From Lachnospiraceae bacterium (lineage in GTDB: Bacteria; Bacillota; Clostridia; Lachnospirales; Lachnospiraceae), in assembly GCA_017439665.1 (NCBI GenBank), contig JAFSIS010000060.1:1-64000 (forward strand): a DNA stretch of 64,000 nucleotides, in the 5' to 3' direction. Of the stretch, positions 43,289 to 64,000 are shown piece after piece. The position numbers were made by a program, and so were the translations under genes. Position 1 is the first letter of the stretch, and every line of letters starts with the position of its first letter. The notes under the pieces are model-generated. The model saw nothing but the letters and a program-made list of their open reading frames with translations, did no database searches and was not told the origin of the DNA.

Positions 43289-43304
43289 TTTTCCTCCGTT
43301 TCTG

Positions 43305-43321
43305 CTGCCCTTTTGGCAGCC
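43305..43321 (-). other. Hairpin before the BMP lipoprotein gene
   Basis: Minus-strand GCTGCC-AAAAG-GGCAGC is a perfect 6-base-pair stem 17 bases before the lipoprotein start and just before its GGAGG. It resembles in form the hairpin before the flp gene and may act as a 5' stabiliser or processing site. Confidence 0.45.
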
Positions 43322-43363
43322 CTTCTTTGTTATACAGAATGGTCTTCTCTTAACGACTTTATG

Positions 43364-44698: not shown

Positions 44699-44712
44699 AT
44701 GCTTTTACCCCC

Positions 44713-45666: not shown

Positions 45667-46772
45667 CTCTGACCTTCCCCCCTTTCTCTTGCCTGTCTTT
45701 TCTTGACTTTTATCCTTTCCAGCAGATTGCGGATAAGAAGAGACAGTGCACCGCAATAAATAATGGCGGCAACAATAATGTCGATGACCTCAGGGACAAA
45801 ATTGAACAGCTGCATATTCCCTCCGCCTACAGTGATATAGGCAATAAACAGACCCGCAAACAGAATCCCGATGGGGCTGGACTGCCCCAGTAAGGCTACA
45901 CAAATCCCATTGAAGCCTTCCGGTGCAATCACATCCAGTACCTGAAGATATTTTCCCGTATTGGACAGATAGAGTAAGGCACCGCCAATCCCTGACAGAG
46001 CACCTGCAATCACCATGGAAAGCACTACGTTTCTTTTCGCATTAATTCCTGCATATTTACAGGCATTCTCATTCTTTCCGCAGGCCTTCAGCTCATAACC
46101 GAAGGTAGTCCTGGAAAGCAGAACGTGAATGATGACCACACACAGAATGGCAATAAAAATTCCGATATTAAGTTTGCTTCCCGCAAAAATGTTTTCCAGT
46201 CCTGCCGTTGGCAGATAAGCACTGCTTTTTACTCCAAGTGACTGATTCTTCATCTGATCATAAATCGTATTGCGTACCAGATAGTTAACCAGATACATTC
46301 CAATGTAATTCATCATGATCGAGGCAATCACCTCATTTACATTTCGATATGCCTTTAACAGCCCTGGAATAAGTCCCCACAGAGCTCCTGCCAGCATGGC
46401 TGCAAGAATCGCCACAAGCCAGTGAATCCCTTCCGGTAAAAAGGTCCACTTTACTCCCACATACACTGCTGCAAAGGCACCCGCCGTAAACTGTCCGCTG
46501 GCGCCGATATTAAACAGGCCTGTCCGAAAGGCAAAGCCCACGGATAAGCCGGTCATGATAATGGGTACGGCATAGTAGAGCATCAGCCCTATACCGGCAA
46601 GACCGTCGGTAAAGCAGCCTTGCACTACCATCATGAAACCACCGTAAGCCTGAGAAGGATTGCTAATGAACAGAATCCCCAGACCAAACAGCAAACCGCA
46701 GGCAATTGCCAGAACAGAAGAAATAAAGCTGGCAAATCCTTCACTTTCAAAAAAATGATGTTTATGCTTCAT
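45663..46772 (-). CDS. Nucleoside ABC transporter permease (NupP type)
   Basis: This 369-residue integral membrane protein has 'LSVGFAFRTGLFNIGASGQFTAG', 'VNEVIASIMMNYIGMYLVNYLV' and 'FGYELKACGKNENACKYAGI', the family signatures shared with the partner permease. The N-terminus is short and cytoplasmic and the C-terminus is very basic. It overlaps the ATPase gene by 11 bases and the next permease gene by 4 bases, so the subunits are translationally coupled. Confidence 0.92.
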   Translation of the reverse strand: MKHKHHFFESEGFASFISSVLAIACGLLFGLGILFISNPSQAYGGFMMVVQGCFTDGLAGIGLMLYYAVPIIMTGLSVGFAFRTGLFNIGASGQFTAGAFAAVYVGVKWTFLPEGIHWLVAILAAMLAGALWGLIPGLLKAYRNVNEVIASIMMNYIGMYLVNYLVRNTIYDQMKNQSLGVKSSAYLPTAGLENIFAGSKLNIGIFIAILCVVIIHVLLSRTTFGYELKACGKNENACKYAGINAKRNVVLSMVIAGALSGIGGALLYLSNTGKYLQVLDVIAPEGFNGICVALLGQSSPIGILFAGLFIAYITVGGGNMQLFNFVPEVIDIIVAAIIYCGALSLLIRNLLERIKVKKRQARERGEGQR

Positions 46773-48300: not shown

Positions 48301-48742
48301 TGTTCTCCTCCTTTCCTCTGCCCTTTTCCAGATTTTTCGGACCAAATCCCAGAGGCAGCAGCTCCTCCAGCAAATATACCTGATATCCGCCCTTACCATC
48401 TGCCAGAATAATCCTAAATTCCTGGGGATGACAAAACTCCATCATCACCTGACGACAAACCCCACAGGGAGAACAGGTTTCCTCTGCCTCACCACTTTCC
48501 TTTCCCCCCACGATTGCAATGGCCGAAAAATTCCGTTCTCCCTCTGAAACTGCTTTAAAAAAAGCCGTCCTTTCAGCGCAGTTGGTCGGTCCATAAGCCG
48601 CATTCTCTATATTGCAGCCACGATACACCTTTCCCTCCTGCGTCAGTAGGGCTGCTCCCACCTGAAAACCGGAGTACGGTGTATATGCCCGTCTTCTTGC
48701 TGCTTTGGCTTCTTCCAGTAATTGTTCATAAGAAATTTTCAT
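48275..48742 (-). CDS. cdd: Cytidine deaminase
   Basis: The protein has 155 residues from the ATG at 48742 (GGGGAGG just upstream); another ATG 12 bases earlier has no site. This zinc enzyme deaminates cytidine and deoxycytidine to uridine and deoxyuridine. Seen are 'AYTPYSGFQVGAALLT', the catalytic 'GCNIENAAYGPTNCAERTA' with zinc ligand Cys and Glu, and 'CSPCGVCRQVMMEF' with the other two zinc cysteines. It is the first gene of the operon. The C-terminal tail is about 20 residues longer than usual and overlaps the next gene. Confidence 0.95.
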   Translation of the reverse strand: MKISYEQLLEEAKAARRRAYTPYSGFQVGAALLTQEGKVYRGCNIENAAYGPTNCAERTAFFKAVSEGERNFSAIAIVGGKESGEAEETCSPCGVCRQVMMEFCHPQEFRIILADGKGGYQVYLLEELLPLGFGPKNLEKGRGKEENSGTGGICN

Positions 48743-48804
48743 TTTCCTCCCCATTCCGTCGCCTTTACGCCTATGCTTCTGCCATTCTGAATAGTTACCT
48801 CTAT

Positions 48805-48834
48805 AGTATACAATAAGGCTTATCCATTGGACAA
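48805..48834 (-). promoter_or_regulatory. Promoter of the nucleoside operon
   Basis: Minus-strand TTGTCC (48829-48834), an 18-base spacer and TATACT (48805-48810). It gives a leader of about 55 bases before cdd. No clear operator is seen. Confidence 0.6.
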
Positions 48835-48900
48835 CTAGATTATTTTAGGGAAATATACAGAAAATATGAGAAGCAATCTATCATCTGCCCCTTAATCTGT

Positions 48901-48934
48901 AAAAGGGACCGTCTATTTTTCGACAGCCCCTTTC
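48901..48934 (-). terminator. Terminator of the amino-acid ABC operon
   Basis: Minus-strand AAAGGGGCTGTC and GACGGTCCCTTT pair through one or two G-T pairs around an A-rich loop, followed by a short T-run. It lies about 30 bases after the ATPase stop codon. Confidence 0.75.
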
Positions 48935-48965
48935 GTATTTTAAATCGATTCTATTTCTTAGTTGC

Positions 48966-49706
48966 TTATAACACCTTAGATAAAAATTCCCTTAGTCTGG
49001 GATTTTCAGGATTTTTAAAAAATTCATCAGGTGTATTTTCTTCCTTGATCTGTCCCTCATCGATGAACAGAACCCGGGTTCCCACTTCTTTGGCAAAACC
49101 CATTTCATGGGTAACCACCACCATGGTCATTCCCTGTGCGGCCAGGTCACGCATAACGCCCAGTACCTCTCCCACCATTTCCGGATCGAGAGCACTGGTC
49201 TGTTCATCAAAGAGCATAACATCCGGATTCATGCAGAGAGAACGTACAATGGCAATTCTCTGCTTCTGTCCACCGGATAACTGGGAAGGATAGGCATTTG
49301 CTTTTTCTTCCAGACCCACCCGCTTTAACAGTTCAAGTGCCTCTTTTTCTGCTTCCTCTCTGGGCTTTTTTAAGAGCTTGATGGGTGCAAGAGTCATGTT
49401 CTGCAGGATGGTCTTATGAGGAAAGAGATTAAAGTGCTGGAATACCATGCCGATCTTCTGGCGGTATTTATTGATGTTGCATTTGGGATCGGTAATATTT
49501 AAGCCTTCAAAGCAGATGCTTCCTCCTGTAGGCTCCTCCAACAGATTCAGAGAACGTAAAAAGGTAGACTTTCCGGAACCGGAGGGGCCTACGATCACCA
49601 CTACCTCGCCCTGGTGTATGTTGGTAGAAATATGGTCTAAAACCAGATTATCTCCAAAAGCCTTACAAAGATCCTTGATTTCAAATAATACGGTTTTATC
49701 GGACAT
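48966..49706 (-). CDS. Polar amino-acid ABC transporter ATP-binding protein
   Basis: This 246-residue ATPase is of the GlnQ/HisP type: Walker A '[16 protein letters not shown]', Q-loop '[17 protein letters not shown]', signature '[20 protein letters not shown]', and Walker B '[18 protein letters not shown]'. A glutamine replaces the usual proline after the Walker B DE ('DEQTSALD'), which is common in this subfamily. The start overlaps the permease gene by 11 bases, with GGAGG 10 bases upstream. Confidence 0.94.
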
Positions 49707-50397
49707 CGGTTCTCAGCCTCCTTTCCAGTTTACCTACACCCAGCGTCAGCAGGGAAACGATGATCAGATAGATCACTGCTGCTGCCAGCAAAGGAAGCAT
49801 AGGAGAATAGGTCTGGCTTCTGATGGTATTTGCTCCGTGGGTAATATCTGTCAGGGCGATATAACCACAGATAGAAGTTTCCTTTAATAAAGTAATAAAC
49901 TCATTGGCCAGGGCCGGAAGCACATTTTTAAAGGCCTGAGGGGCTACGATGTACCACATGGTCTGGGCATAGCTAAAGCCCAGGCTTCGTCCTGCCTCAA
50001 ACTGTCCCTGGTCAATGGACATGATGCCGGAACGGAAGATCTCTGCCACGTAAGCAGCTGAATTGATTCCAAAGGATAAAACAGCCACAAACTGCTTGCT
50101 CACATTGGGGCTGGCAAAAATAATATAGTACATGATCAGCAGCTGGATCATGGCCGGAGTTCCCCGGATAACTGTCAGATAGAGCTTACAGAACCAGTCC
50201 AGAAGCCTCAATACGAGGTTTTTGCTCCCGCTCTTGTCTGCCGTAGAACGAACCAGCGCAATGGCAAAGCCCAGTACCACCCCCAAAATAATGGCAAAGA
50301 TCGTCACCGTAAAGGTTGTACCCAAACCGTTAGTAATATACTTCCACCGGTTATCCTCAATAAAATTCAGATAAAATTGCTGTTTAAACTCTTCCAT
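49696..50397 (-). CDS. Polar amino-acid ABC transporter permease
   Basis: The protein has 233 residues from the ATG at 50397 (GAGGTGG upstream). It has about five membrane segments and the HisM/GlnP pattern '[17 protein letters not shown]', '[20 protein letters not shown]', '[26 protein letters not shown]' (EAA loop) and '[20 protein letters not shown]'. It is expected to form a homodimer. A terminator-like stem-loop separates it from the upstream binding-protein gene. Confidence 0.94.
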
Positions 50398-50405
50398 AGA
50401 CCACC

Positions 50406-50452
50406 TCAAAAAAGAAAACTGCTGCCTGAACCGGCCAGGCCCAGGTAGCAGT
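50406..50452 (-). terminator. Intra-operon terminator between binding-protein and permease genes
   Basis: Minus-strand ACTGCT-CCTG pairs with CAGG-AGCAGT around a GC-rich loop and is followed by TTTTCTTTTTTT. It sits 9 bases before the permease ATG and overlaps the start of its ribosome site region. Partial read-through would give more binding protein than membrane subunits. Confidence 0.8.
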
Positions 50453-50487
50453 AATGTTCATCTTACTCAGTTCTTCATTCCGGTTTT

Positions 50488-51339
50488 TTATTCTCCGCGA
50501 ACAATAATCACCTGAGTAGCAGTTGTATAAGGATCGGAGAAATCCACACTCTTTAAACGGTCCTCTGTTACCGTCATTCCGGCTACACCGATATCTGCTT
50601 TTCCACTGGTAACTGCATTGATGATGGAATCAAATTCCATATCTTCAATCTTTAATTCCATACCCAGAATATCACATACTGCCTGAGCCATATCTACATC
50701 AATACCGGTGATTTCCTGATTTTCATAGAATTCATAGGGCTCAAAGGCTGCGTTGGTAGCCATCACCAGGGTTCCGTTGCTGCGATCCACATCAGCGGGA
50801 GATTCATAGGGCATGGTTCCCTTCGTCTCATCTCCAATGTAGTTGGCGATGATCTGAATCAGTGTTCCGTCTGTCTGAAGCTGTTCCAGAGCAGCATTGA
50901 TCTTTTCTGTTAATTCCGGATTGTCCTTGGAAATACAGATTGCATATTCTTCCAGAGCAAACTCCTCTTCCAGGATCTTCAGATCCGGATTCTTCTCCAC
51001 AAAGGCAAGGGCAGGCTGCTCGTCAATAATTACACAATCCACTTTTCCCTGCTTTAAGGCCTGAATGGCATCTGCTCCCTTGTTGTAACGCTCAATAGTA
51101 GAGCCTTCTGCCTCATAGTCACTGGCATAAATGTCACCTGTAGTACCTAACTGTACACCGATGGTTTTCCCGGGAAGATCCTCCGCTGAAGAAACGGTGT
51201 TGGCCGGTATCTTGGATTCAGATTCGGTTGTGGCTTCGGAACCGGTTGTGGATTCAGAGCCGGCTCCTGATCCGGATCCACATGCAGTAAGGCTGAAAGC
51301 CATAGTCAAAGTCAGTAAACCAATTAAAAACTTTTTCAT
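50488..51339 (-). CDS. Amino-acid ABC transporter substrate-binding lipoprotein
   Basis: The protein has 283 residues from the ATG at 51339 (GAGGAGG upstream). The signal ends in lipobox LTAC, followed by a Gly/Ser/Thr spacer. The SBP_bac_3 fold has 'KTIGVQLGTTGDIYASDYEAEG', 'LKQGKVDCVIIDEQPALAFV', and then, after a linker, 'LVMATNAAFEPYEFYENQEITGIDVDMAQAV' in two pieces around residue 200-230. Unusually, the segment matching the normal N-terminal lobe lies in the second half, so the domain order looks circularly permuted compared with GlnH. Substrate unknown, probably a polar amino acid. Confidence 0.88.
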   Translation of the reverse strand: MKKFLIGLLTLTMAFSLTACGSGSGAGSESTTGSEATTESESKIPANTVSSAEDLPGKTIGVQLGTTGDIYASDYEAEGSTIERYNKGADAIQALKQGKVDCVIIDEQPALAFVEKNPDLKILEEEFALEEYAICISKDNPELTEKINAALEQLQTDGTLIQIIANYIGDETKGTMPYESPADVDRSNGTLVMATNAAFEPYEFYENQEITGIDVDMAQAVCDILGMELKIEDMEFDSIINAVTSGKADIGVAGMTVTEDRLKSVDFSDPYTTATQVIIVRGE

Positions 51340-51363
51340 CTTTTCCTCCTCATATTCTAACAG

Positions 51364-51377
51364 ACAGATGCATCTGT
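51364..51377. promoter_or_regulatory. Perfect 14-base palindrome in the binding-protein leader
   Basis: ACAGATGCATCTGT is a perfect palindrome between the -10 element and the ribosome site of the binding-protein gene, about 20 to 32 bases after the predicted start point. It could be an operator. Confidence 0.45.
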
Positions 51378-51402
51378 TACGCATATTTATAAATCAATTT
51401 TT

Positions 51403-51430
51403 ATCATAGCATTATTTTTCAAAAATGCAA
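51403..51430 (-). promoter_or_regulatory. Promoter of the amino-acid ABC operon
   Basis: Minus-strand TTGCAT (51425-51430), a 16-base spacer and TATGAT (51403-51408) with a TGC extension. It lies just after the stop codon of the upstream lipoprotein gene. Confidence 0.65.
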
Positions 51431-51437
51431 CATGATT

Positions 51438-51986
51438 TTACAAACTGGTGCAGTAATTCAAAAGATTTTCCAGGCTGTCTTCCCCTGCAAGGGTAACCGT
51501 CATGACCATCACCTTATCCTCTATTCGTCTTAAATAAAACTGTTGGGTCAATTGTGGCTTAGCCACAGCAGCAGAAAAGGTATAGTATACTTCACCCAAA
51601 AGCTCTGTCTCGGTTACCTCACTGCAGCTGTATTTATGGTTGCCGGAAAGCTTCAGATTTTCCTGAAAGGCAGCCAGATAATCCTCCATCCGGATCAGAT
51701 TACCGCCCTGAATCCGGTTCAGATCATCATAAAGAAGAGAAATTCCACTTCCTGTCACAACATCCTCTGCCACAAAATCATACCTCACTTCTGCAGAGCT
51801 TCCCTCTTCATATGTACTCACCGTCCAGCCCTCCGGAAAGGTAAACAGAAGCCTTCCCGGCTCACTGCTGATTTCCGTAGCCTGTACAGCCACTTCTTCG
51901 GCCTCTTTTTCCTTGCAGCCGCCAAGCATGCATAAGAGCAGAGTAAGTAAGGCAAATAAGCCTATGTAGTTTATTCTTTTTTTCAT
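51438..51986 (-). CDS. Small lipoprotein of unknown function
   Basis: The protein has about 182 residues from the ATG at 51986; another ATG three codons earlier is possible. The lipoprotein signal ends in LGGC. The mature part has a beta-rich pattern ('RLLFTFPEGWTVSTYEEGSS', 'QQFYLRRIEDKVMVMTVTLAGE') resembling PsbP/LpqN-like surface lipoproteins, but I cannot assign a family. It lies between rsmI and the amino-acid ABC operon on the same strand. Confidence 0.65.
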   Translation of the reverse strand: MKKRINYIGLFALLTLLLCMLGGCKEKEAEEVAVQATEISSEPGRLLFTFPEGWTVSTYEEGSSAEVRYDFVAEDVVTGSGISLLYDDLNRIQGGNLIRMEDYLAAFQENLKLSGNHKYSCSEVTETELLGEVYYTFSAAVAKPQLTQQFYLRRIEDKVMVMTVTLAGEDSLENLLNYCTSL

Positions 51987-52071
51987 CTTTACCATCCCTT
52001 TATTGTCTGATCTGAGATCATCCCTGCATAGCCACATAACCACTCTGGTCAGTGTGCTGTTATCCTGATGA

Positions 52072-52914
52072 TCAATATGTCAGCAGCTGCTGATAGACCT
52101 CCCTCTTGCTGATTCCCCGATCCTTTGCCACCAGCTTCATGGCCTCTTTACGGTCTATTCCCTTATCCTCGTAATGCTTCATATGCTCTTCATAAGAAAG
52201 CTCCTGCCAGGAGGCTCTTTCCTCCTCCTGTACGGCCTGAAGGCTTTTTCCCTCCACCACCAGTACGTATTCCCCTCTCGGTTCATTCTCTTCATAATAA
52301 AGAAGGGCCTCCTTAAGAGTGGTTGGAAATACGGTTTCAAATTTTTTGGTCAGCTCCCGGCACAGTGTGACCCGCCGGTCTCCCAGGGTCTCCCCAAGCT
52401 CCTTTAAGGTCTGCTTTAAGTGATGGGGAGCCTCATAAAGAATAATGGTTCTGGTCTCCCGCTCCAGCTCCTTTAAGATACTCCTTCTCTCCTTCTTTTC
52501 TGTTGGAAGGAAGCCTTCGAAACAGAAACGCCTTGTAGGCAGGCCGGACAGAGTCAGAGCAGTGATGCAGGCTGCCGGCCCCGGAAGAGAGGTAACCCGG
52601 ATTCCTGCCTCCTGGCATTTGGCTACCAGAACCTCTCCCGGATCCGAGATGGCGGGTGTTCCTGCATCTGTGATCAGGGCAATATTTTTCCCTTCCAGAA
52701 GCTGTCGGATCAGTACATCTGCCTTTTCATATTTATTGTGTTCGTGATAGCTGGTCATGGGAGTTTTGATCTGAAAATGGTTCAAAAGCTTAATGCTGTT
52801 TCGGGTATCCTCTGCCGCAATTAAGTCCGCTTCTTCCAGACATTCTGCCACTCTGAGGGTCATATCCTTCAGATTACCGATAGGAGTGGCACATAAAAAA
52901 AGCTGTCCTGCCAT
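52072..52914 (-). CDS. rsmI: 16S rRNA (cytidine(1402)-2'-O)-methyltransferase
   Basis: This 280-residue SAM-dependent enzyme methylates the 2'-OH of C1402 in 16S rRNA. Seen are 'LFLCATPIGNLKDMTLRVAE', 'EADLIAAEDTRNSIKLLNHF', 'ALITDAGTPAISDPGEVLV', 'VTSLPGPAACITALTLSG' and 'RRVTLCRELTKKFE'. The fold is the tetrapyrrole methylase type. A C-terminal helical segment ('DKGIDRKEAMKLVAKDRG') is typical. The start has GGGAGGA upstream and a strong promoter at 52965-52993. Confidence 0.96.
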   Translation of the reverse strand: MAGQLFLCATPIGNLKDMTLRVAECLEEADLIAAEDTRNSIKLLNHFQIKTPMTSYHEHNKYEKADVLIRQLLEGKNIALITDAGTPAISDPGEVLVAKCQEAGIRVTSLPGPAACITALTLSGLPTRRFCFEGFLPTEKKERRSILKELERETRTIILYEAPHHLKQTLKELGETLGDRRVTLCRELTKKFETVFPTTLKEALLYYEENEPRGEYVLVVEGKSLQAVQEEERASWQELSYEEHMKHYEDKGIDRKEAMKLVAKDRGISKREVYQQLLTY

Positions 52915-53028: not shown

Positions 53029-56000
53029 TTATCTGCGATCTTTACATTCAGGATAAGGGAGCTGTTCCTTACTGGAGGCTGTCGCCCGGGTAAGCTGGTA
53101 TACGATCTCGCTGAAGTACCGGGGCTGAACCTGATCCGGCTTATAGTGGTTCTGCTCCTCAATCTTGTCGTAAACGTAGCTTCCCCGCTTTACTGTACCG
53201 GCTCTATAGAAGTTAAGACCGAATACGGTAATCTCTTCGTTCTCATCTGCCACATAACAGCCGGAAAACTCAAGCTCTGCTCCCCATTTTCCATCTTCCC
53301 GGTAAAAGGTAAAATACATTCCTGCATCCCCAGTAGAGCCCTTATACCAGCCCATGCCCTGCAGCTTGCCAGACAAGGACAGACCATTTAATAGCTTTCC
53401 GCCAAAACGGGTCAGCTCTGCTGCCCCTTTTTCCTCCTCCGTAATCCGGTAAACCGGGCGGTTCAGCTGTTCCACCGGTTGGGTGATCTCGTAGTCGCTA
53501 AGCTGCTCTTTCCAGTTCTTCAGCTCTTCTTCCTCCAGCTCTATGGGGTGTACCAGTCCGATCGAAGCCCCCTCAGGAAGCTCCAGCTCTTCCTCATCGC
53601 AGGTGGTAAAGCTGCCGTCCTCCATATACCGGAAACTCTTCGTCAGTCTTCCTTCTTCATATAGTCCCCAGATCAGACCAATGGCAAACTGATGCATAAC
53701 CGGATTTTTCACGAACAGCTCTGTCCAGCTTTCACTGCTCCACAGCCGTTCCGCAGATAAGGCATACTCAAGACGCTGCTTCTGGTTAGTGGTAACCGTT
53801 TTCAGCTGTTTCTTGAACTGCTTAAACTCCTCATAGGCAGCCTTTGCCTTCTCTTCCTCATCCTTTTTGCCGGGGGCAGGAAGATTCTTAAGCCGTTTCC
53901 CTTCTTCATCCAGGATCTCCAGCTCCAGAGAAGGGGTGAGGTAAACCTGAAAGCTTCTGGCTCCATAGTCGAAGGTTCGTTTCATCTCTTCATCGAATCC
54001 CAGGTTGGGTACGATCCTGTCCTCCAGCTCCTGCCTTGTGATGCCCAGCTCACCGGCCGCATTTTCCAGAGCCTGCAGGGCTGCCGTCTTTACCTGACGG
54101 TGCTTGAATTTACGGGCAATCTGATCCACCTGCATCAGTGCCTGGGAGCTTCCATTAAAGACCAGAGCCTTTACCGCTTCCGCGGCCAGGGCTCCTCTGG
54201 AATTTTGTGCCCACTCCTGAATATTTTTCCAGAAAATGGGAACCATTTTCTCCCCACCGTGGCAGGCCGCAGCATAGAGCACCCATTTCTTTTTGGCTTC
54301 CGCTCCACTTTCCAGCCATTTTCCCAAAAGCTCTGCCGCAAAGCGGTTAAGTTCCTCTTCCTTCAGGCTGGCTGCCAGCTGCTTTGCCTCCTCACTGATT
54401 CCGGGAACCGTCTTATCCGCATAGGCCACCAGAATTGCCTGTAAATATTTCTCTTCTGCTATCTCCTCCTGAAGCGTATGTACCGGCGAGAAAGGTGTTT
54501 CAAAGGCCCAGGATACCTTACGGGCTTTACCACCCTTTAACAGCAGGGTTACCATGTCCTGACCAGCCGGTGAAGCCTGATCCGTGTCGGATGTGCTCAC
54601 ACCCAGGCAGCCCCCCAAAAGCTCCTTTAACTTCTTACTTTTTTCCTTTTCCAAGGCTCCCACAAGCTGCTGATGGTATTTTTCAGCTCCCCATCCCTGT
54701 AAAGTGAGGATGGCCAGCTCCCTTTCCTGGGATTTTTTAGAGGACAGCATCTCGATCATCCTGCCTTCCCACTCCGGATGGCCCAGACAGATGGCTGAAA
54801 GAACCTCTCTCACCTGTTTGGAACTGTCCAGTGCAGTCTCTAAAATAGTCTCCTGCTCCTCTGCGGCAAAGCTGTCCAGTACCCTAAGGCAGATTCCTCT
54901 TCCCAGCACTGTTCCCTCCCGGACTCCTGCATGCACCTGCTCCACATGGTCGTTACGCCTCTTCACCAGGGCTTTCACTGCTTCATCCATAAAGGCAGCC
55001 TTCCATTTGTCATTATAGCTGCTCTCATAAACGGCTCCCAGGGCATCTGCCTGATAGACCACTGACAATCCTTCTTCTTCAAACAACTGAACCAGTGTAT
55101 CCATTTCTTCTTCCATTTTATTTCGCAGAAAGGCCTTTTCCTTCGTGATAAAAGTAAAGTTATTATTTAAAAAATTTCCTCTCATGGCCAGTGCCATCAG
55201 CACTGTACCCCGCGAATATAACTTGGGACTCTTATGCATAAGCTTCTTCAGCTTATCCTGTACTGTATACCCCGGATAGCGATAATAGGACAATCCTCTC
55301 CAGGCGTTGACAAAGGGATAGAGATCCTCCAGCTTCCTTTCTCCCAGCAGAAAGTCTCTTGCTTCCAGACTGCCTGAGGGAAGGCCCGATGTCATCTCAT
55401 GGGCCAGCTTAAAATCCAGCTTATTCTCCATATTTTTTGCAATCTCCTGATATAAGCCGGGATTTCCCACCTCTGCCTGCTTCATCAGGAAAAAATAATC
55501 ATCTGTACTTCCTTCTTTTGCCAGTTGCCGGTAAGCCTCCGGAAACTTTGCAGCTGCCTTCTGCAAAGCCCGTACCGCTTTATGATTTATACACCAACAA
55601 AGATAACGCCTGCTCTGCCGACCCAGTTCTTTGGTAAAAAGCTCCATATGATCCGTAAACCAGCTTCCATTTGTGGGAGCCATCTCTTTACAGGCAGTTA
55701 ATGCCACTTCAAAATCCATTTCCAGGGCCAGACGGATAAAATTCACAAACTTCCCGGAATGATCTATGGAAATAAAGGCCGTTCCGGTAAGGAGGGTAAG
55801 CAGATAGGTATGAAACCTCTTTCCCCGGATCAGGGTTACAGCCTTTTCGGGAAGCTCTTCTTCCGTTTGTGCCTGAAGGAAAGAAATAAGAGGCTTCAGC
55901 TCTTCCTGGGTTGGCTGGGGATCGGGGAACAGACCGGAAAGAGCTGTGATCAGATTATTTTCCAGATATTCCACCTGCTCCTGAAGAGAGGATTCCTTTT

Positions 56001-56595
56001 TCTCCTCCTTTGCAGAAAAAAGCTTTTTCAGGATGCCCTCTTTCCTTTCACTGCTTTGGGTCTTACAGGAAAATAAAAGAATCCCTGTCAGCAATACCTT
56101 TGCATTACTATATTTATGGTTGCACAATTGAATCGCTTTTTGAAGAGCCTTTGGATCCATCCTTCCGGTCTCAAACAGTTCTGCCAGACTTCTTTCCCTC
56201 AAGGCATAGCTGTTCCAGACCAGTGCCTCCGCCCGTATAGCTGTCTCCTGCTCCCTGGTCAGCCACTCCTTTAAATCCTTCAGCATCCACAGGCCATCAG
56301 CCAGTACATAATAAGCCGTGGAACCTCCCACTGCTGCTGCAAATTCTACATAGGCCTTCACTTCTTCTGTCCGTTTTCTTTTCTGCAGATATCCTGCATA
56401 TTCCCTGCTTTTTTTCTGTTTTTTTTCATCCAGCCGGGAAAAATCCTGGGGCTCTGCTGCCTTAAGAAGCACTGGGCCGCATCTCTTCGTTTCATCCAGA
56501 TACTGCTCTGCCAGCTTCTTGTTCTTCTCAGTCAGCTCCAGACTCTCCAATGCATCCATCAGCTTTTGATAGTGGTGTTCCTCTCTTAAATTCAT
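53029..56595 (-). CDS. DUF4132 protein (YehI/MolR-like) of the MoxR-VWA cassette
   Basis: The 1188-residue soluble protein is mostly helical, with HEAT-like repeats in the middle ('KKSQERELAILTLQGWGAEKYHQ', 'KFKHRQVKTAALQALENAAG' regions). The C-terminal 250 residues carry the DUF4132 signature region around 'KNPVMHQFAIGLIWGLYEEG' and 'RLTKSFRYMEDGSFTT'. The family includes E. coli YehI/MolR, whose function is unknown. Its start overlaps the SWIM gene stop codon by 4 bases (ATGA), so the two are translationally coupled. It is the last gene of the five-gene cassette. A scaffold role is inferred from the repeats. Confidence 0.85.
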   Translation of the reverse strand: MNLREEHHYQKLMDALESLELTEKNKKLAEQYLDETKRCGPVLLKAAEPQDFSRLDEKKQKKSREYAGYLQKRKRTEEVKAYVEFAAAVGGSTAYYVLADGLWMLKDLKEWLTREQETAIRAEALVWNSYALRERSLAELFETGRMDPKALQKAIQLCNHKYSNAKVLLTGILLFSCKTQSSERKEGILKKLFSAKEEKKESSLQEQVEYLENNLITALSGLFPDPQPTQEELKPLISFLQAQTEEELPEKAVTLIRGKRFHTYLLTLLTGTAFISIDHSGKFVNFIRLALEMDFEVALTACKEMAPTNGSWFTDHMELFTKELGRQSRRYLCWCINHKAVRALQKAAAKFPEAYRQLAKEGSTDDYFFLMKQAEVGNPGLYQEIAKNMENKLDFKLAHEMTSGLPSGSLEARDFLLGERKLEDLYPFVNAWRGLSYYRYPGYTVQDKLKKLMHKSPKLYSRGTVLMALAMRGNFLNNNFTFITKEKAFLRNKMEEEMDTLVQLFEEEGLSVVYQADALGAVYESSYNDKWKAAFMDEAVKALVKRRNDHVEQVHAGVREGTVLGRGICLRVLDSFAAEEQETILETALDSSKQVREVLSAICLGHPEWEGRMIEMLSSKKSQERELAILTLQGWGAEKYHQQLVGALEKEKSKKLKELLGGCLGVSTSDTDQASPAGQDMVTLLLKGGKARKVSWAFETPFSPVHTLQEEIAEEKYLQAILVAYADKTVPGISEEAKQLAASLKEEELNRFAAELLGKWLESGAEAKKKWVLYAAACHGGEKMVPIFWKNIQEWAQNSRGALAAEAVKALVFNGSSQALMQVDQIARKFKHRQVKTAALQALENAAGELGITRQELEDRIVPNLGFDEEMKRTFDYGARSFQVYLTPSLELEILDEEGKRLKNLPAPGKKDEEEKAKAAYEEFKQFKKQLKTVTTNQKQRLEYALSAERLWSSESWTELFVKNPVMHQFAIGLIWGLYEEGRLTKSFRYMEDGSFTTCDEEELELPEGASIGLVHPIELEEEELKNWKEQLSDYEITQPVEQLNRPVYRITEEEKGAAELTRFGGKLLNGLSLSGKLQGMGWYKGSTGDAGMYFTFYREDGKWGAELEFSGCYVADENEEITVFGLNFYRAGTVKRGSYVYDKIEEQNHYKPDQVQPRYFSEIVYQLTRATASSKEQLPYPECKDRR

Positions 56596-58637
56596 CCTTC
56601 TCTCCCTTCCCTGTGTTCACAGTCCTTTTCCATCGTAACCAGTGCCAGATCATAAGAGGCCTTTTTCCTGCACAGCATAAGACAAAGGGACAGATAAGCC
56701 CATGTCGTAAAAAGCTCCTCCATACAGGGCTTCACCCCATGACGCCTTTGATCCAGTCTCTCCTGCAAAAAATACAGCCTGTCTGCAAGTTGGTGAAGCC
56801 CCAGTGCTTCCCCTTCCTCACCCATGCTTTTTATCTCCTTAAGCAGCCTTTCCTGAACGGAATCCAGACCACAGACGAACAGATCTCCCAACACCTTTCT
56901 TATACTTTCCAGAAAGCTGCTCACTTTTTCTATACTTTCCTGTGCATAACCCAAGCCTATATCTGCTTCTTTTTCTTCCGCTGCCCATTCTTCTATGCCC
57001 AATTCCTCTTCAGTAAAATACTCAATGGGGTACAGACAGAGCTGCCCCTTTTCCAAATAGGGCTCTCCCAAAAAGATAACGCCGCTTTCCTTTTTCTCCT
57101 TTAGCTGCTTATTCAACCGTTCCAAAAACCGGATCGTAAGCTGTTCTTCTTTGGAATACTTTACGGCCACCAGAAGTATCCTTCCTGCTTCATCCTTAAG
57201 CTCCATGGAAAACCGCTGTTCTACAGGATCAAAAACCGCTTCTCCCAGTTTTCGGGCACCTGCCAGGACGGGCTGGCCCCTATGCTCATCCCAGCTTTTC
57301 AGCAGCCGGGAATAGTCCTTAAACACCAGCTCTTCCAATCCCTTATCATCAAGCTGTCGTTTTCCTGCGATCTCCCCTTTGGTTTCCTGACTTACCGACA
57401 GACGGCCGTCCCTGGTCACCCTGGCTCCCTTCAGATAAAACTCCGACTGTCCCAATTCTTCCCGGGTACAGTTAAGTCCCCAGGGAGCTTCTTCCCGGGT
57501 ATAGGCAGCAGCTGATCTTCTCCTTTTGGTTTCGTAAAACAGCGGCCTTGCATCCGTCCAGGTATAGAATCGTTTCTGGTTCAGCTCTAAAAAATAGTAG
57601 GTCTCTCCTTCATACCCCGTTTTACTGTGGAAAAAACGCTGGCCCATGGCTGCCAGATGAAGGCTGGCTACCGGCTCATAGGTGTCCCGGAAGCTTCCCG
57701 CCAGCTCCTTTATTTCTGAGGGTTCCTTCGCCTTTTCCAAAAGACAGGCCCGGTGGTAGAGCCACAGCAGCCTTTCCAGAAGCTCCTCTACCCGGAATGC
57801 TGCTTTTCTTTCCCTATACATCTGATACTCCGAAGCTGCCTTACGAAACTCATTTTCAACATCAGGAAGTCTTGCTCCCCGGCTGATGATGGCCAACCGC
57901 TCCATACTTTCCTGTGCCTCCCCTGAAAGCCGGGAGAGCCCTATGCCAAGCTGGAGTCCTATGACTTCCTTTATGGAGGCCGCTGTCTCCTTAAGTTCAT
58001 CCGGATCCCAGCTTTCCGCTGATTCTGCCTGCCGCTCCAGGTCTGCCAGAGATATTTTCCCCTCAGACAGCCAGATGGTCAAAATTGCCTGTGCCTTATG
58101 GACACACAGCTCCCTGCTGTGGCAGCTGCAGGTGGAAAACTCCAGTGGACTGAGCAGCTTTACTGCCATGTTCTCCCAGGGAAAGCTGACCGTAAATACA
58201 GAGCCCTCCTGCACCTGAGGAAGCTCACCGGCCTTAAGGTGAGCCAGAAACAGCCTGAAGCCTTTGGTCCGGCTAAAACGTTCCAGTTTCTTTTGAGAAA
58301 ATGCCATGATCTCCTCCTTCAGCTTTTCCCTTCCTTCTTCCACAGGCTCCTGCACGCTGTCACCATCTTCTCCCGCCTTCTGTCTGGCATAAAGGATGGC
58401 CGTGATCAGATGCCGGCAGATACTCCGGGAAGGACAGCTGCAGCTGCTCTCCCCCAGGGGAATGCGAAGCTGACACACTGCACCCTTCAGCTCTGTCCTG
58501 GCCTCTTTCTCCATCCACTCTATTTTGGGGTTTTCTGCTTCCAGATCCTTATAAGCCCGTTTTACGGTTCCTTTATTACTTATTCCGATCAGATATTCAT
58601 CGTCAGTCTGTAAAAGAAGCTGTTTTAATTCTTCCAT
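56592..58637 (-). CDS. SWIM zinc finger protein with two SWIM motifs (YehQ-like)
   Basis: The 681-residue protein has two CxCxnCxH motifs: C66, C68, C74, H76 ('SCSCPSRSICRHLITAIL') and C170, C172, C178, H180 ('TCSCHSRELCVHKAQAIL'). Each should bind zinc and may contact DNA or protein. The remainder is helical and then beta-rich with no enzyme motif; the C-terminus is acidic then helical. Length and neighbours match the E. coli YehQ type. The start has AAGGAG upstream. It lies 11 bases after the VWA gene and overlaps the DUF4132 gene. Confidence 0.85.
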   Translation of the reverse strand: MEELKQLLLQTDDEYLIGISNKGTVKRAYKDLEAENPKIEWMEKEARTELKGAVCQLRIPLGESSCSCPSRSICRHLITAILYARQKAGEDGDSVQEPVEEGREKLKEEIMAFSQKKLERFSRTKGFRLFLAHLKAGELPQVQEGSVFTVSFPWENMAVKLLSPLEFSTCSCHSRELCVHKAQAILTIWLSEGKISLADLERQAESAESWDPDELKETAASIKEVIGLQLGIGLSRLSGEAQESMERLAIISRGARLPDVENEFRKAASEYQMYRERKAAFRVEELLERLLWLYHRACLLEKAKEPSEIKELAGSFRDTYEPVASLHLAAMGQRFFHSKTGYEGETYYFLELNQKRFYTWTDARPLFYETKRRRSAAAYTREEAPWGLNCTREELGQSEFYLKGARVTRDGRLSVSQETKGEIAGKRQLDDKGLEELVFKDYSRLLKSWDEHRGQPVLAGARKLGEAVFDPVEQRFSMELKDEAGRILLVAVKYSKEEQLTIRFLERLNKQLKEKKESGVIFLGEPYLEKGQLCLYPIEYFTEEELGIEEWAAEEKEADIGLGYAQESIEKVSSFLESIRKVLGDLFVCGLDSVQERLLKEIKSMGEEGEALGLHQLADRLYFLQERLDQRRHGVKPCMEELFTTWAYLSLCLMLCRKKASYDLALVTMEKDCEHREGREG

Positions 58638-58648
58638 TTCTCCTTATC

Positions 58649-59776
58649 CTATTCCATGATCCTTCCTACGAAATCTCCAAGCTGGCAGGGTGTCATCGCT
58701 CCCACATAAGCTCCCCTGTCTGCCAGCATCTGTCCTGTTCTTCTGTCATAGGAAGGATTTGCATCCTTATCAAGCGCCGTCAGGCAGATCAGCTTTGCTC
58801 CGCTTTCGATGATCTTTGCCGCTGTACCTATGAGTCCCTCTACTCCTCCGCCTTCACAAAGATCGGAAACCAGTACCACCATAGTACGGTGGGGATTTTC
58901 CATAAGGCTCTCACAATACTGCAGGGCCCCTGCAATATAGGTTCCTCCTCCAAGCTGGATACTCATCAGCGTCGTCACCGGGTCCTCCAGATGAGCACTC
59001 AAATCTACCACCTGGGTATCAAAAATAACCAGTCTGGTGTCCAGCATGGGCAGCCTGGCAAAAATACCCGCCATGATCGCACTATGGATCACTGAGCCCA
59101 GCATGGAACCGCTTTCATCTACGGCAATGATCATTCTCCAGGAATTATATTTTTGTGTTCTTGCACTGAAATAGATCCTCTCCAGGATCAGCTGTCCCGT
59201 TTCCCTGTCATAATTCTTCAGATTTTTCTGAATCGTCTTTTGCATATCCAGATTACGGATGGAGGGCACATTGCTGGGCCTGTTCCGATCCAGTCTTCCC
59301 AAACGGGAACGTCGGATCTCTCTGTCCAGTTTTTCGGCAATCTCCTCTGCCACCTTTTTCACGATCCGGCGTGCAGCCTCCAAAATCTCTCCCTTCATCA
59401 GATGCTTTAGCTGTAAAATGGATTCCAGCAGCTCCTGATTGGGTTCCAGCTTTTCCAGCACCGTTTTGTCCGTCAGCAGTTCAGTCAGTCCATAGGTTTT
59501 TAATGCATGTCTTTCCAGAATCTCCACCGTTTCTTTGGGAAAAAGAGTACGGATCTTTCTGATCCAGGTGGCTGCTGTCAGGCGGCTTCCTTCTGTTCCC
59601 CCCTCCCTGCGGACATCCTCCCCATATTCTCTGGAGTAAAGAAAATCCAGAACCTCATCCATCTCCTGATAGGAGCTTAAGCTTTCCCCCTGAATCTCCC
59701 GGGTAAAAGAAATCTGCTTTTCGGCATAGCGTCCAAGCACCAGACGCCATCTGTTCAATATGTTTGGCTCCCTCAA
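58649..59776 (-). CDS. VWA domain protein with intact MIDAS (YehP-like)
   Basis: The 375-residue protein starts at TTG (59776) with GGGAGGA 5 bases upstream. Residues 1-205 are helical and charged. The C-terminal VWA domain has a complete metal-ion-dependent adhesion site: DESGS at 220-224, Thr279 in 'LGGGTYIAGAL', and Asp305 in 'VLVSDLCEGG'. VWA proteins with this layout work with MoxR AAA ATPases, as in RavA-ViaA, to remodel or load partners. It lies 14 bases after the DUF5682 gene. Confidence 0.9.
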   Translation of the reverse strand: MREPNILNRWRLVLGRYAEKQISFTREIQGESLSSYQEMDEVLDFLYSREYGEDVRREGGTEGSRLTAATWIRKIRTLFPKETVEILERHALKTYGLTELLTDKTVLEKLEPNQELLESILQLKHLMKGEILEAARRIVKKVAEEIAEKLDREIRRSRLGRLDRNRPSNVPSIRNLDMQKTIQKNLKNYDRETGQLILERIYFSARTQKYNSWRMIIAVDESGSMLGSVIHSAIMAGIFARLPMLDTRLVIFDTQVVDLSAHLEDPVTTLMSIQLGGGTYIAGALQYCESLMENPHRTMVVLVSDLCEGGGVEGLIGTAAKIIESGAKLICLTALDKDANPSYDRRTGQMLADRGAYVGAMTPCQLGDFVGRIME

Positions 59777-59790
59777 CTTCTTCCTCCCTT

Positions 59791-62253
59791 TTATCCTTTG
59801 ATGATAAGGCTGTTCTGCAGTTTTTCTGATACATAACGGTTTAACTGCTCTCCATAGGCATATTCCTCCGGCCTGATGGGTCTGGCCCTAAGAATATCCT
59901 TTCCCTGTTTTCCATAAAGAGCGGCTGCCTTACCGGCCAATCTATCCGTTTCCAACGGGGTAAACCAGGTAAAGGCCATCCTCAGCTGAGGTAAAAGCTG
60001 CATAAACTCCTCCGCTGACAGTCTGGCAAAAAGCTCATCCAAAAGCTCAATAAAACTGGGGTTGCCAAAGACAAAATCTCTGGCGGTAAAAAACAGTCCC
60101 TGCAAAAAGGCGGCACTTTGCTTTACCATTTCTTCTGTTCCTCTGATATAACCTTCTGCCGCCCTCATCATCTGCCGTTCATAGGAAGCATCATAGCCAT
60201 ACAAAAGTCCCAGCGCAGTTCCTTCAAGGCGGGGCCGGATTTCCTTTTGTGCCAGCAGCCTTTCCAACGCCTCCTTATATACCGGGCGCAGCTCTTCACA
60301 GCCTTCTCTGCCCATGGTCTGATAGAACATACGGAGTACCTCTGTACATTGTTCTTCCTGCTCCTCTGCCACAGTCCCCATGGAGGGCAGAAGTCCGATC
60401 AGCTTATGAAAGCAGCCCTGAAGCAGCTTTTGTAAATCCAGCTCTTTACTGACCTTATACAGTTCTCTCAGCTCTTTAAGCATCAGCAGATAAGAAAAAC
60501 CTTCTGACAGAGAGAAAAAATCTCCATCCTGTACCAGTACCCTGGAGATCTCCTCTCCCATTTTTCTTTGTTCATCTGCTATCCCCATCAAAAATCCCTT
60601 TACCAGAAGCTGTGCAGCTTCTCTGCAGCAGGTACTTTTGCTTAATCGGCTGTTTAACTGTGCCCGGACAGCTTCCTCCACCGTTCCACCGGATACCGAA
60701 TATTCGATCAGGGCAGGAATGATCCGACTGGACCACTTATAGCGCCAGATCTCCCGGATGCGGTTCTTATCCCTTCTTCTCACCAGATCCGCTCCTTCTT
60801 TTCTATGGGCAAAACCACAGGCCAGGAAATCGGTCTGATGGAGGAAACGACTTAACTTTAGATGCTTCCTGCTTCTGAAAATTTCCAGGGTAAGCTCTGT
60901 CTCCAGCGTGGAATGAAGCTTCAGGCCAAAAGCCTGGCATTGCTTCTCAAAATCCCCGATGAGAGGCGGCTGATCTGCTCCCGGACAGAGTCTGCCTACC
61001 TGACTTCCTCTGATCAGCTCCTCCAAAATCTCCAGAGGCTTACGACTGGAAATCGTATATTCTCCTTTGACAAAGGAGGACAAGGCCGCATCCTTCAGCT
61101 CGTACAGACCAGGCTCCTTTTTTCCTCTGAGCGCTGCCAGCCCCTCTGCCATGGAATAGCCACAGATCTCATCATAAGAGGAAATCCCTTCATCCTTCTG
61201 CCTGGCTTTTTTCCCCGAAAGTGCCAGATAGTGCAAAGCAGCATCCCGATAAGCACCCTCTGTATTTTCCTTCTCATCCAGCGTCTCCCATACTCTTTGA
61301 TAAAAGCCCGGTGACTGCATACCGCTGGCATAACCATTCAGGGCATCTGCTGCCTCCATGGAATAGGACATGGGATAAACCGGCTGATCTCCTTTCGGAA
61401 TTTTATGGAGCTTTACCTCCTGCCCGCAAAACTCATAGCTTCCACTTTTCTTTTCTAACAGACTGCAGATTCCCGAGCTGTGAAAACCTCCGGTAACGAC
61501 CAGAACTTTTCTGTATTTTGCTGATTCCTCTGCAATCTTCCATGCCATATACTGCTCACGGCCCAGGCAGCCATCCTCCTTAAGCTCCTGCTTCGTCGTA
61601 TACTGTCTGGACAAAAAGCAGTAGGTATGCATCTGTTCCACAAAATCGGCAGTAGTCTGTCTGAGTCCCTGGATTTCAAAATATTTCTCCCATAGCTCCT
61701 CAAAGCTGCGCAAGCTGGTTTTTTCACAAAGAAGCTCAAAAAAACGGCTTCGGCTCAACAGATAATCATCATTATAGCTTAACTCTTCCCCTTCCTTAAG
61801 CCTTTCTGCCCTTTCACCTGCAGCCTGCAGAAGGATCTCTCCATAAGGAAGATCTATAAAGTGAACAGGAATCTGCCCTTTTTTTGCCTCTCTGAGTGCC
61901 ACCAGCTCAGGGGAAAAATCCAGAAAAGGATAGTAACACTTATAATCCTCTTTTTTGTCGCTGATCAGACCCTCCTTATCGGAATAGGCATAATACAAAG
62001 CTATGGGAGCCTGGGTTTCATCCTCTGCCAGGACGGGGATCAGTGCACCTGCATTCTCCGGCCCCTCCACCAGAATACTTTCAGGCTCATATTCCTGAAT
62101 CGCTTTTTTCAGATGGAAGGCACAGGCCGGACTGTGGTGGCGGACAGGAAAAAACAGAACAGGAAGCTTAAGGTCATAGGACAGCTCTGGGGGAAGAGAA
62201 AGCCCCCCACCTTTTAGTTCAGGTATTTCCTGGCCTCGTAGTACTTCTTCCAT
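59791..62253 (-). CDS. DUF5682 protein (YehM-like) with TraB/TIKI/ChaN-like motifs
   Basis: The 820-residue protein has no signal or membrane helix. The N-terminal 270 residues contain 'FFPVRHHSPACAFHLKKAI' (RHHS at 38-41), 'ESILVEGPENAG' (62-68), 'GREQYMAWKIAEE' (231-243) and 'KVLVVTGGFHSSGI' (249-262). The order His...Glu...R(D/E)xxM...GxxH matches the pattern of the TraB/TIKI/ChaN/EreA hydrolase superfamily as I remember it; that link is inference. The C-terminal 500 residues are helical repeats. It overlaps the MoxR gene by 40 bases, with GAGGGAGG before the ATG. It is the second gene of the cassette. Confidence 0.82.
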   Translation of the reverse strand: MEEVLRGQEIPELKGGGLSLPPELSYDLKLPVLFFPVRHHSPACAFHLKKAIQEYEPESILVEGPENAGALIPVLAEDETQAPIALYYAYSDKEGLISDKKEDYKCYYPFLDFSPELVALREAKKGQIPVHFIDLPYGEILLQAAGERAERLKEGEELSYNDDYLLSRSRFFELLCEKTSLRSFEELWEKYFEIQGLRQTTADFVEQMHTYCFLSRQYTTKQELKEDGCLGREQYMAWKIAEESAKYRKVLVVTGGFHSSGICSLLEKKSGSYEFCGQEVKLHKIPKGDQPVYPMSYSMEAADALNGYASGMQSPGFYQRVWETLDEKENTEGAYRDAALHYLALSGKKARQKDEGISSYDEICGYSMAEGLAALRGKKEPGLYELKDAALSSFVKGEYTISSRKPLEILEELIRGSQVGRLCPGADQPPLIGDFEKQCQAFGLKLHSTLETELTLEIFRSRKHLKLSRFLHQTDFLACGFAHRKEGADLVRRRDKNRIREIWRYKWSSRIIPALIEYSVSGGTVEEAVRAQLNSRLSKSTCCREAAQLLVKGFLMGIADEQRKMGEEISRVLVQDGDFFSLSEGFSYLLMLKELRELYKVSKELDLQKLLQGCFHKLIGLLPSMGTVAEEQEEQCTEVLRMFYQTMGREGCEELRPVYKEALERLLAQKEIRPRLEGTALGLLYGYDASYERQMMRAAEGYIRGTEEMVKQSAAFLQGLFFTARDFVFGNPSFIELLDELFARLSAEEFMQLLPQLRMAFTWFTPLETDRLAGKAAALYGKQGKDILRARPIRPEEYAYGEQLNRYVSEKLQNSLIIKG

Positions 62254-63338
62254 ATGCCTCCCTCTCTATCCCCCTTATCACGTACAACGGTTTGAAAATA
62301 ACCTCTCAGTTTTTCCAGATCCTCTTTATTTTCCTTCTGTACCGCTCCCACCAGATTCTGCACCAGCTGCCCCAGATCCATGCGGGAGTCCCCGTAATAA
62401 TAAGCAGCCATCATGGTCTGGTAATAAACGGAAACGGCTTCTGCCGTACTCATCACTGCATTTGGACGGTCTATCCTGTGTCCCATGGAGGACTGACCCT
62501 CTCTAAGCTCGTGATAGGTAGAAGCCAGCAGCTGGGCTACATTCTCATCCATATCCATTTGGATCCGGTTTGCTTCGGCAAGCTCCTCCACCTCACTTAA
62601 AATGATCTGTTTCTCCATTGCCACATCCCGGATGGGCATCACCGTTTCAAAGTTAAATCGCCGCTTCAGGGCACTGCTCATTTCATTAACACCCTTGTCC
62701 CGGGTATTGGCCGTCCCGATGATGTTGAAGCCAGGCCTGGCAAAAAGAAGGCCGCTTTCTCCCAGCTCCGGAACGTTTAACACCTTATCACTGAGTACGC
62801 TGACCAGACTGTCCTGAATCTCTGAAGGGGTACGGGTAATCTCTTCAAAACGGGTCAGGATTCCTTTTTCCATTCCCACATAGAGGGGTGAGGGCACCAG
62901 TGCTTCCCTGACCGGTCCCTTTGCCAGAAGAAGGGCATAATTCCAGCTGTATTTGATCATATCCTCCGTGGTTCCTGCCGTTCCCTGGATGGTATTCGTG
63001 CTGACTCCGCTTATGGCCGCGGAAAGAAGCTCCGAAAGCATAGTCTTAGCCGTTCCCGGTTCTCCTACCAGCATCAGTCCTCTGTTACCCGCCAACGTGA
63101 TAATGCAGCGTTCCACCAGGGTATCATTTCCCAGATATTTTTTACGAATGCTGATCTCTTCTCCATTCCAGCTGATGGGTTCTTTACTTCCCAGAATGAA
63201 TTTTCGGACTGCCTGGGGGGACAGCTTCCAGTTCAGCGGCTTTTTCCCCTGATCCTCGGCTGCCAGAGCCTCCAGCTCCTTGCGATAGCGCACCTCTACC
63301 GGGGGACGCATTTCCATCCTGCTTACCTCTTCCTTCAT
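62214..63338 (-). CDS. MoxR-type AAA+ ATPase (YehL-like)
   Basis: The 374-residue protein has Walker A 'VGEPGTAKTMLSELL' (GEPGTAKT at 92-99), a MoxR-type insertion ('STNTIQGTAGTTEDMI'), Walker B region 'KGILTRFEEITRTP' (about 158-171) with Glu-Glu instead of Asp-Glu, sensor 1 'FNIIGTANTRDKGVNEM' and the arginine-finger segment 'SALKRRFNFE'. MoxR ATPases act as chaperone-like machines with VWA partners. The start has AAGGAGG upstream. It is the first gene of the cassette. Confidence 0.92.
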   Translation of the reverse strand: MKEEVSRMEMRPPVEVRYRKELEALAAEDQGKKPLNWKLSPQAVRKFILGSKEPISWNGEEISIRKKYLGNDTLVERCIITLAGNRGLMLVGEPGTAKTMLSELLSAAISGVSTNTIQGTAGTTEDMIKYSWNYALLLAKGPVREALVPSPLYVGMEKGILTRFEEITRTPSEIQDSLVSVLSDKVLNVPELGESGLLFARPGFNIIGTANTRDKGVNEMSSALKRRFNFETVMPIRDVAMEKQIILSEVEELAEANRIQMDMDENVAQLLASTYHELREGQSSMGHRIDRPNAVMSTAEAVSVYYQTMMAAYYYGDSRMDLGQLVQNLVGAVQKENKEDLEKLRGYFQTVVRDKGDREGGIWKKYYEARKYLN

Positions 63339-63542: not shown

Positions 63543-64000
63543 CTATGCTGTCTCTTCCAGTCGTCTTAATCTGACCATCCAAAAGATCATCGCAATAAAA
63601 ATAACTACTGCTGCTATTTCAATGATGATCGTAAGAACCATATTCTCTCCCAACAGATACCCTAAAAAGGGAGTACTACCCAAAAAATTAAAGACCATAT
63701 GAAAGAGAATCGAGGCCAGGACCGACTGGCAGTTCACAGAAACAAAGCACATCACCAGCCCCAGACAGGTGGCATAACCTATCCAGACGATCTGGCCATG
63801 GAAAAGTCCAAAAGCTATGCTTGATAAGATTGCTGCCACAACCAGCGGCATTGCTTTATTTAATCTGGAAAAGACCAGACCACGGAAGATAAGCTCTTCT
63901 ATGATCGGTGCTCCGATCACTGTAGACAAAAAAACGGCAACGGTATTTCCATAAAGCAGACTCGCGACGGAGGCCTCGTATTCCAGCATGATCTCTTCCG
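63543..64000 (-). CDS. CPBP family intramembrane metalloprotease, 5' end outside the window
   Basis: The C-terminal 150 or so residues are present; the frame is open to the window edge, so the N-terminal membrane segments are missing. The three abortive-infection/CPBP motifs are intact: 'EELIFRGLVFSRL', 'SIAFGLFHGQIVW' and 'SILFHMVFNFLG'. Such proteins are related to CAAX prenyl endopeptidases and bacteriocin self-immunity proteins. The C-terminus is basic and cytoplasmic. The role here is unknown. Confidence 0.9.
   Translation of the reverse strand, partial: EEIMLEYEASVASLLYGNTVAVFLSTVIGAPIIEELIFRGLVFSRLNKAMPLVVAAILSSIAFGLFHGQIVWIGYATCLGLVMCFVSVNCQSVLASILFHMVFNFLGSTPFLGYLLGENMVLTIIIEIAAVVIFIAMIFWMVRLRRLEETA

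Follow-up and report, generated by a model that had tools for sequence, protein, structure and literature searches.

TraB, PrgY and TIKI proteins are mostly membrane-attached or secreted. PrgY has been described as a peptidase (PMC7117660) and TIKI as a Wnt metalloprotease (PMC12329661), and the TIKI enzymes have a 2His/2Glu site (PMC6254334). RRSP is an endopeptidase that does not need a metal, and PMT – a TIKI-fold relative without the catalytic set – has no endopeptidase activity on KRas (PMC6254334). A separate group of described systems is built on MoxR-type AAA+ ATPases paired with VWA proteins, among which CoxD/CoxE and NorQ/NorD mature the metal sites of partner enzymes (PMC3471820, PMC4240915, PMC13036017). 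MoxR and VWA proteins also make up RavA/ViaA, and are accompanied by a third conserved protein in the MoxR-vWA ternary conflict systems of Kaur et al. 2020 (PMC7159879), where this third component is VMAP, iSTAND, FtsH or a beta-propeller. TraB, Tiki, DUF4132 and YehL are absent from the text of that paper, and a title and abstract search of the open-access literature found no report in which MoxR and TraB are joined in one system.

Escherichia coli K-12 carries all of yehI (encoding a DUF4132 protein), yehL, yehM, yehP and yehQ, and yehM is found at 80% completeness or more in 5166 of the 5426 complete genomes of this species (95%). Genome-reduced E. coli is viable without the yeh region (PMC10652928), which is thus dispensable in the laboratory, and a yehM mutation arose in one copper evolution experiment (PMC12409786). 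The open-access literature that we searched for yehM yielded a deletion list, this copper-evolution mutation and a transcriptome mention, and no tested function; DUF5682, the family to which YehM belongs, was not found there by name. It is possible that the family (PF18934) already has a clan assignment in a database. A role in molybdate metabolism that had been linked to yehI/MolR was set aside because a Deinococcus study reported no molybdate effect (PMC8533742).

Here, we analyse a DUF5682 gene and its neighbours in a 64,000-nucleotide stretch of Lachnospiraceae DNA, referred to below as the window. The gene lies on the minus strand (59791..62253) and encodes an 820-residue YehM homologue (Pfam E 3.2e-102) that is 25% identical to YehM of E. 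coli K-12 over 90+% of its length; the plus-strand reading of 61467-62253 is riddled with stops. The protein has two parts. An N-terminal TraB/TIKI-superfamily domain, delimited by hhalign, AlphaFold and VIA-align, spans about residues 30-298 (61360..62166, minus strand), and a helical C-terminal region spans residues 315-820 (59794..61311, minus strand) in the full-length AlphaFold model (pLDDT 88.0, pTM 0.79) and in the VIA-align rows, which liken it to HEAT/ARM alpha-solenoids from about residue 525. A sequence-only reading of the window had placed the domain at 61467-62253, ending at residue 262; the observation is confirmed, and the domain extends further, to about residue 298. At one other locus (L128:1339-3078) a 580-residue protein without the TraB domain matches positions 292-357, in the middle of the DUF5682 model, with E 1.7e-4, and at another (L123) the match to DUF5682 falls within a frame of 1397 codons broken by one TAG, as would arise from recoding, a pseudogene or an assembly error.

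The DUF5682 gene is part of a five-gene cassette encoded on a single strand in the window, all on the minus strand. Upstream is a gene for a MoxR-type AAA+ ATPase (62214..63338), a YehL homologue with the Walker A motif GEPGTAKT (AAA_5, E 6.5e-33), which overlaps the start of the DUF5682 gene by exactly 40 bases, as it does at 75 of 88 loci. Downstream are genes for a VWA_CoxE protein (58649..59776), assigned by Pfam, a YehP homologue with an intact MIDAS motif (DESGS), a YehQ-like SWIM zinc-finger protein (56592..58637) recognized by Pfam and by two CxC...CxH motifs, and a DUF4132 protein (53029..56595; Pfam) with a HEAT-like region, homologous to YehI. Among the 59 loci with long flanks, 57 have the order MoxR-DUF5682-VWA and 40 have all five genes in the order of the window. 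In Streptomyces atratus (L115:8953-12717) DUF5682 and VWA_CoxE are fused into one protein of 1255 residues, a natural pointer to a direct contact between the two. Some cassettes (L112, L113, L114 and L117) have DUF5691 in place of DUF4132, located 5′ of MoxR, giving the variant order SWIM-DUF5691-MoxR-DUF5682-VWA, although no separate SWIM gene was seen in L114; this suggests that DUF5691 and DUF4132 are interchangeable modules. A CAAX/Rce1-like protease gene (63543-63998) lies on the same strand just 5′ of MoxR and leaves the window, and the region 3′ of the cassette (42146-52914) holds ordinary genes for a tetrapyrrole-methylase-family protein, an amino acid-type ABC transporter, and a Bmp-type ABC transporter with a pyrimidine phosphorylase.

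The E. coli yehL-yehM-yehP-yehQ genes are the same cassette, encoding MoxR, DUF5682, VWA and SWIM proteins in this order with DUF4132 alongside, except that DUF4132 lies 5′ of MoxR in E. coli and 3′ of SWIM in the window. The cassette of the window shares with CoxD/CoxE, NorQ/NorD, RavA/ViaA and the ternary systems the combination of a MoxR AAA+ ATPase, a VWA protein and a third conserved protein, and its VWA protein belongs to the same Pfam family as CoxE. The third component is however different from those of the ternary conflict systems, being a DUF5682 protein with a TraB-type domain. The bpMoxR model scores the MoxR protein of the window below its cut-off (23.1 of 27 bits), and PADLOC matched none of DUF5682, VWA and SWIM to a defence model and returned only weak generic AAA matches to MoxR.

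In the lineage of the window the DUF5682 gene is sporadic, being present in 11 of 116 genomes (including that of the window) and in none of six congeners, and it was found in 8 of the 398 genomes of a phylum sample. A scan of viral contigs for DUF5682 relatives found none; one unverified phage record contains a copy, and phage carriage is no theme of this family.

Four ordered motifs – RHHS (residues 38-41), VEGPENA (62-68), REQYMA (232-237) and VVTGGFHSSGI (252-262) – had been read from the letters alone as signs of a TraB/TIKI/ChaN-like hydrolase, and all four are at these residues in the 820-residue translation. Their conservation was assessed in 101 DUF5682 sequences comprising 80 public-genome loci (mainly from Lachnospiraceae and other Clostridia), relatives from the genome set, and diverse members from E. 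coli, Rhizobium, Methylosinus, Iodobacter, Deinococcus, Hymenobacter, Streptomyces, Nonomuraea and Fusobacterium, with six named phyla represented and the most distant members only 20-25% identical. All 101 keep R38, H39, E63, D134, E193, R216, R232, E233, M236, G255 and H258. Given such complete invariance, the four motifs are not a product of chance. D134, E193 and R216 are additional invariant charged residues that did not figure in the earlier list of motifs. Two of the residues proposed there for the active site need adjustment. Residue 64 is a glycine, and the glutamate is E63; and of the two histidines offered as alternatives, H39 is invariant (101/101) and H40 is not (93/101), so H39 is the relevant one.

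The invariant residues are distributed along the domain in the order seen in TraB (coordinates on the minus strand). Motif 1 (R38-H39-H40-S41-P42, 62128..62142) lies just past strand 1, with H39 aligned to the histidine of the TraB GTAH sequence, and motif 2 (E63-G64-P65, 62059..62067) is at the end of strand 2, with E63 aligned to an invariant TraB glutamate. D134 (61852..61854), the last residue of a core strand, and the invariant E193 (61675..61677) pair with an invariant Asp and an invariant Glu of TraB, respectively. Motif 3 (R232-E233-x-x-M236, 61546..61560) corresponds to R-D-x-Y in TraB and begins the helix preceding the last core strand, and motif 4 (T254-G255-G256-F257-H258, 61480..61494), with G255 and H258 invariant, is the second GxxH of the TIKI superfamily. 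This second GxxH is present in all 101 homologues, whereas the first is PxxH in the window protein and 86 of the 101, and GxxH in 14; a proline at this position is also present in two of 21 TraB proteins.

Plain searches do not reveal this relationship. A single-sequence search of PDB sequences with the DUF5682 protein gave nothing usable, and a profile search with the N-domain gave only chance matches, so the link to TraB needs profile-profile or structure comparison. The first of these had been proposed as a check of the clan placement, and it came out clearly. With hhalign, the N-domain profile (residues 28-330) matches a TraB/PrgY profile with a probability of 95.7% (P 9e-9, score 67.6, 224 columns) and the motifs in register, a result reproduced with 21 TraB proteins (225 aligned positions). 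The controls failed to approach this score, reaching 16.1 with a reversed profile, 24.6 for the best of 100 column shuffles, and 19.7 for the best of 18 unrelated protein families taken from the flanks. H39, E63, D134, E193, R232, G255 and H258 each stand opposite an identical invariant TraB residue, E233 stands opposite a nearly invariant Asp, and the His-to-Glu spacing is 24 residues in both families; the nominal P of 5e-5 for matching the invariant residues is optimistic, since conserved columns are given preference in the alignment.

HMM matches in both directions agree with this. The TIGR00261 traB model reaches one DUF5682 member (E 1.4e-5), PF01963 matches another (E 8e-4), and true TraB proteins recovered in the PF18934 genome scan match the DUF5682 model (E 4e-4). 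PF01963, PF04187 and TIGR00261 all touch the window protein at one place, residues 219-269, where motif 4 lies, with E values of 0.04 to 0.2 and scores short of the cut-offs; for PF01963 the protein scores 12.8 bits (whole protein) and 14.6 bits (domain) against a cut-off of 26.8 bits, and for PF04187 (ChaN) 12.2 bits against 27.7 bits. Because the window protein falls short of the PF01963 cut-off while being homologous at the profile level, DUF5682 is best regarded as a sister family outside PF01963. Profiles of other relatives match around motifs 3-4 at most (GumN, ChaN, Ere), with the GumN-type profile reaching 18.7% by hhalign in the motif 3-4 region alone, and the Ere profile (PF05139), made from one sequence, giving no match. 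On the profiles available the nearest branch to DUF5682 appears to be TraB/PrgY and not ChaN or EreA, for which only two and one sequences were compared, making the ranking against TraB an unfair one. DUF5694 (PF18950) also matches the DUF5682 N-domain weakly, in 10 of the 75 members (best E 0.0068); it may be another uncharacterised family of the TIKI superfamily.

The second proposed check, structure prediction followed by a fold search, led to the same superfamily. Helical repeats dominate a structure search with the full-length model, so the N-domain was searched separately; its AlphaFold model, built with 75 sequences, has a pLDDT of 90.7 and a pTM of 0.91. After VIA-align realignment the 13 best PDB rows all belong to the TIKI superfamily (Z 11.2 to 6.3), whose shared alpha/beta core is built on a parallel sheet, and the next row, which is unrelated, has a Z of 5.1. 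The top match is a subunit of Tetrahymena complex IV that carries the name TraB family protein (Z 11.2, 10.8 and 10.6), followed by ChaN in the fourth row (9.4), HopBA1 (8.4), EreC (7.8), Bcr135/136 (7.3-7.6) and RRSP (6.3-6.8), the last known here as a PDB search row and through the cited paper. Foldseek against the PDB also ranks the Tetrahymena subunit first, then Bcr135, EreC and ChaN, with modest E-values (best 3e-3), and in a viral structure library the sole match under E 0.001 is a TraB family protein (E 1.4e-4). In the predicted secondary structure H39 and H258 lie 2-3 residues past core strands, E63 is near a strand end and D134 ends a strand, in each case on the C-terminal side of the strand, so that in the model these four residues are predicted to occupy the active-site edge of such folds.

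DUF5682 thus shares with TraB/PrgY (PF01963, TIGR00261) the fold, the ordered series H...E, D, E, R-D/E and G-x-x-H, and the common occurrence of P57 and S41, but is only 17% identical, usually has P-V-R-H where TraB has G-T-A-H, and lacks the hydrophobic segment of the sampled TraB proteins, having instead a 500-residue helical C-terminus and MoxR/VWA neighbours. The fold (Z 6.3 to 9.4 for the proteins among the PDB rows) and the His/Glu/His logic are also those of the TIKI Wnt metalloproteases, EreC, Bcr135/136, ChaN, HopBA1 and RRSP. ChaN sequences (GEFH) and RRSP (PMC6254334) have a Glu two residues ahead of the first His that is missing from DUF5682 and TraB, and DUF5682 shows no sign of being secreted or anchored in a membrane.

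With the hhalign comparison, the reciprocal HMM matches and the AlphaFold-model search in agreement, as the sequence-only reading had anticipated, DUF5682 almost certainly belongs to the TIKI superfamily. A coincidental appearance of the motifs on an unrelated alpha/beta fold would fit the sub-threshold scores of the window protein with PF01963, PF04187 and TIGR00261, but is scarcely credible when the hhalign controls, the reciprocal matches and two independent structure libraries all point to the clan. What the domain does is a different question, and the total conservation of the polar set makes it rather probable that DUF5682 is an active hydrolase. The same conservation bears on whether the fold could serve without catalysis, by giving the MoxR/VWA machine a scaffold or a client-binding adaptor. 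There are precedents, in that PMT has the TIKI fold but lacks the catalytic set (PMC6254334) and in Tetrahymena complex IV a TraB family protein serves as a structural subunit, and the big solenoid C-terminus suggests protein binding; we nonetheless regard this role as unlikely, because scaffolds usually lose such residues somewhere, and here they are kept in 101 of 101 sequences including members that are 20-25% identical.

If DUF5682 is a hydrolase, the nature of its substrate is less clear. The descriptions of PrgY, TIKI and RRSP are the basis for reading it as a peptidase, which by this analogy has roughly an even chance of being correct. An EreA-like esterase, or another ester or amide hydrolase acting on a metabolite or antibiotic, would account for EreC and Bcr135 among the structural matches (Z 7.3-7.8), and Ere enzymes have the same His-Glu mechanism (PMC6254334). 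The profile match is nonetheless to TraB/PrgY and not to Ere (although the Ere profile is one sequence), and the fixed AAA+/VWA partnership suits a protein client, so that such an activity seems quite improbable. A ChaN-like protein binding haem or another cofactor, which would serve metal homeostasis or deliver the cofactor and have MoxR/VWA for its insertase, has in its favour the fourth-ranked structural match to ChaN (Z 9.4), weak PF04187 matches (34 of the 75 members, the best with E 0.0039), and the yehM mutation in one copper evolution experiment (PMC12409786). Both the sequence affinity of DUF5682 to TraB and the failure to find a hydrophobic export signal or segment in it argue against this, and we consider it very unlikely.

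The reading that we prefer, and think likely overall, is that DUF5682 is a distinct, apparently soluble TraB/TIKI family – a predicted hydrolase, probably a peptidase – that is loaded or switched by MoxR/VWA. Residues 30-298 are predicted to form a TIKI alpha/beta fold with the H39, E63, D134, E193, R232, E233 and H258 set, in which H39, E63 and H258 (with D134) would bind a metal or activate water; metal dependence is not to be assumed, since RRSP needs no metal. The MoxR/VWA pair would dock on DUF5682 through VWA, and would then load or switch its active site or present a protein client, an arrangement favoured by the maturation of partner metal sites by CoxD/CoxE and NorQ/NorD. SWIM and DUF4132 may provide substrate recognition or may be clients themselves. 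That MoxR/VWA performs metal loading or gating of DUF5682 is a tentative proposal, and a comparable degree of doubt attaches to the complete scheme of an AAA+-operated hydrolase, in which a cytosolic TraB-type peptidase is metal-loaded or gated by MoxR/VWA with SWIM/DUF4132 choosing the clients. Counting against this preferred reading are the modest Foldseek E-values and the missing Glu ahead of the first His, although TraB itself lacks it. In contrast to most TraB, PrgY and TIKI proteins, moreover, no clear membrane segment was found in the DUF5682 family by hydropathy, a crude measure by which the highest 19-residue mean is 1.05 in the window protein and 1.6-3.0 in the sampled TraB proteins, and exceeds 1.6 in 10 of 102 homologues.

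We place DUF5682 within a known superfamily, as a new family with new partners, rather than calling it a new kind of enzyme. DUF5682/YehM, for which the open-access literature searched gives no function, gains a predicted fold, a candidate active site and a chemistry that can be tested. The MoxR/VWA pair likewise gains a predicted hydrolase, and the targets of such machines could be tested through H39, E63 and H258 mutants. If the proposed scheme is true, nearly every E. coli would carry an AAA+-operated peptidase of this type in the form of YehI/YehLMPQ.
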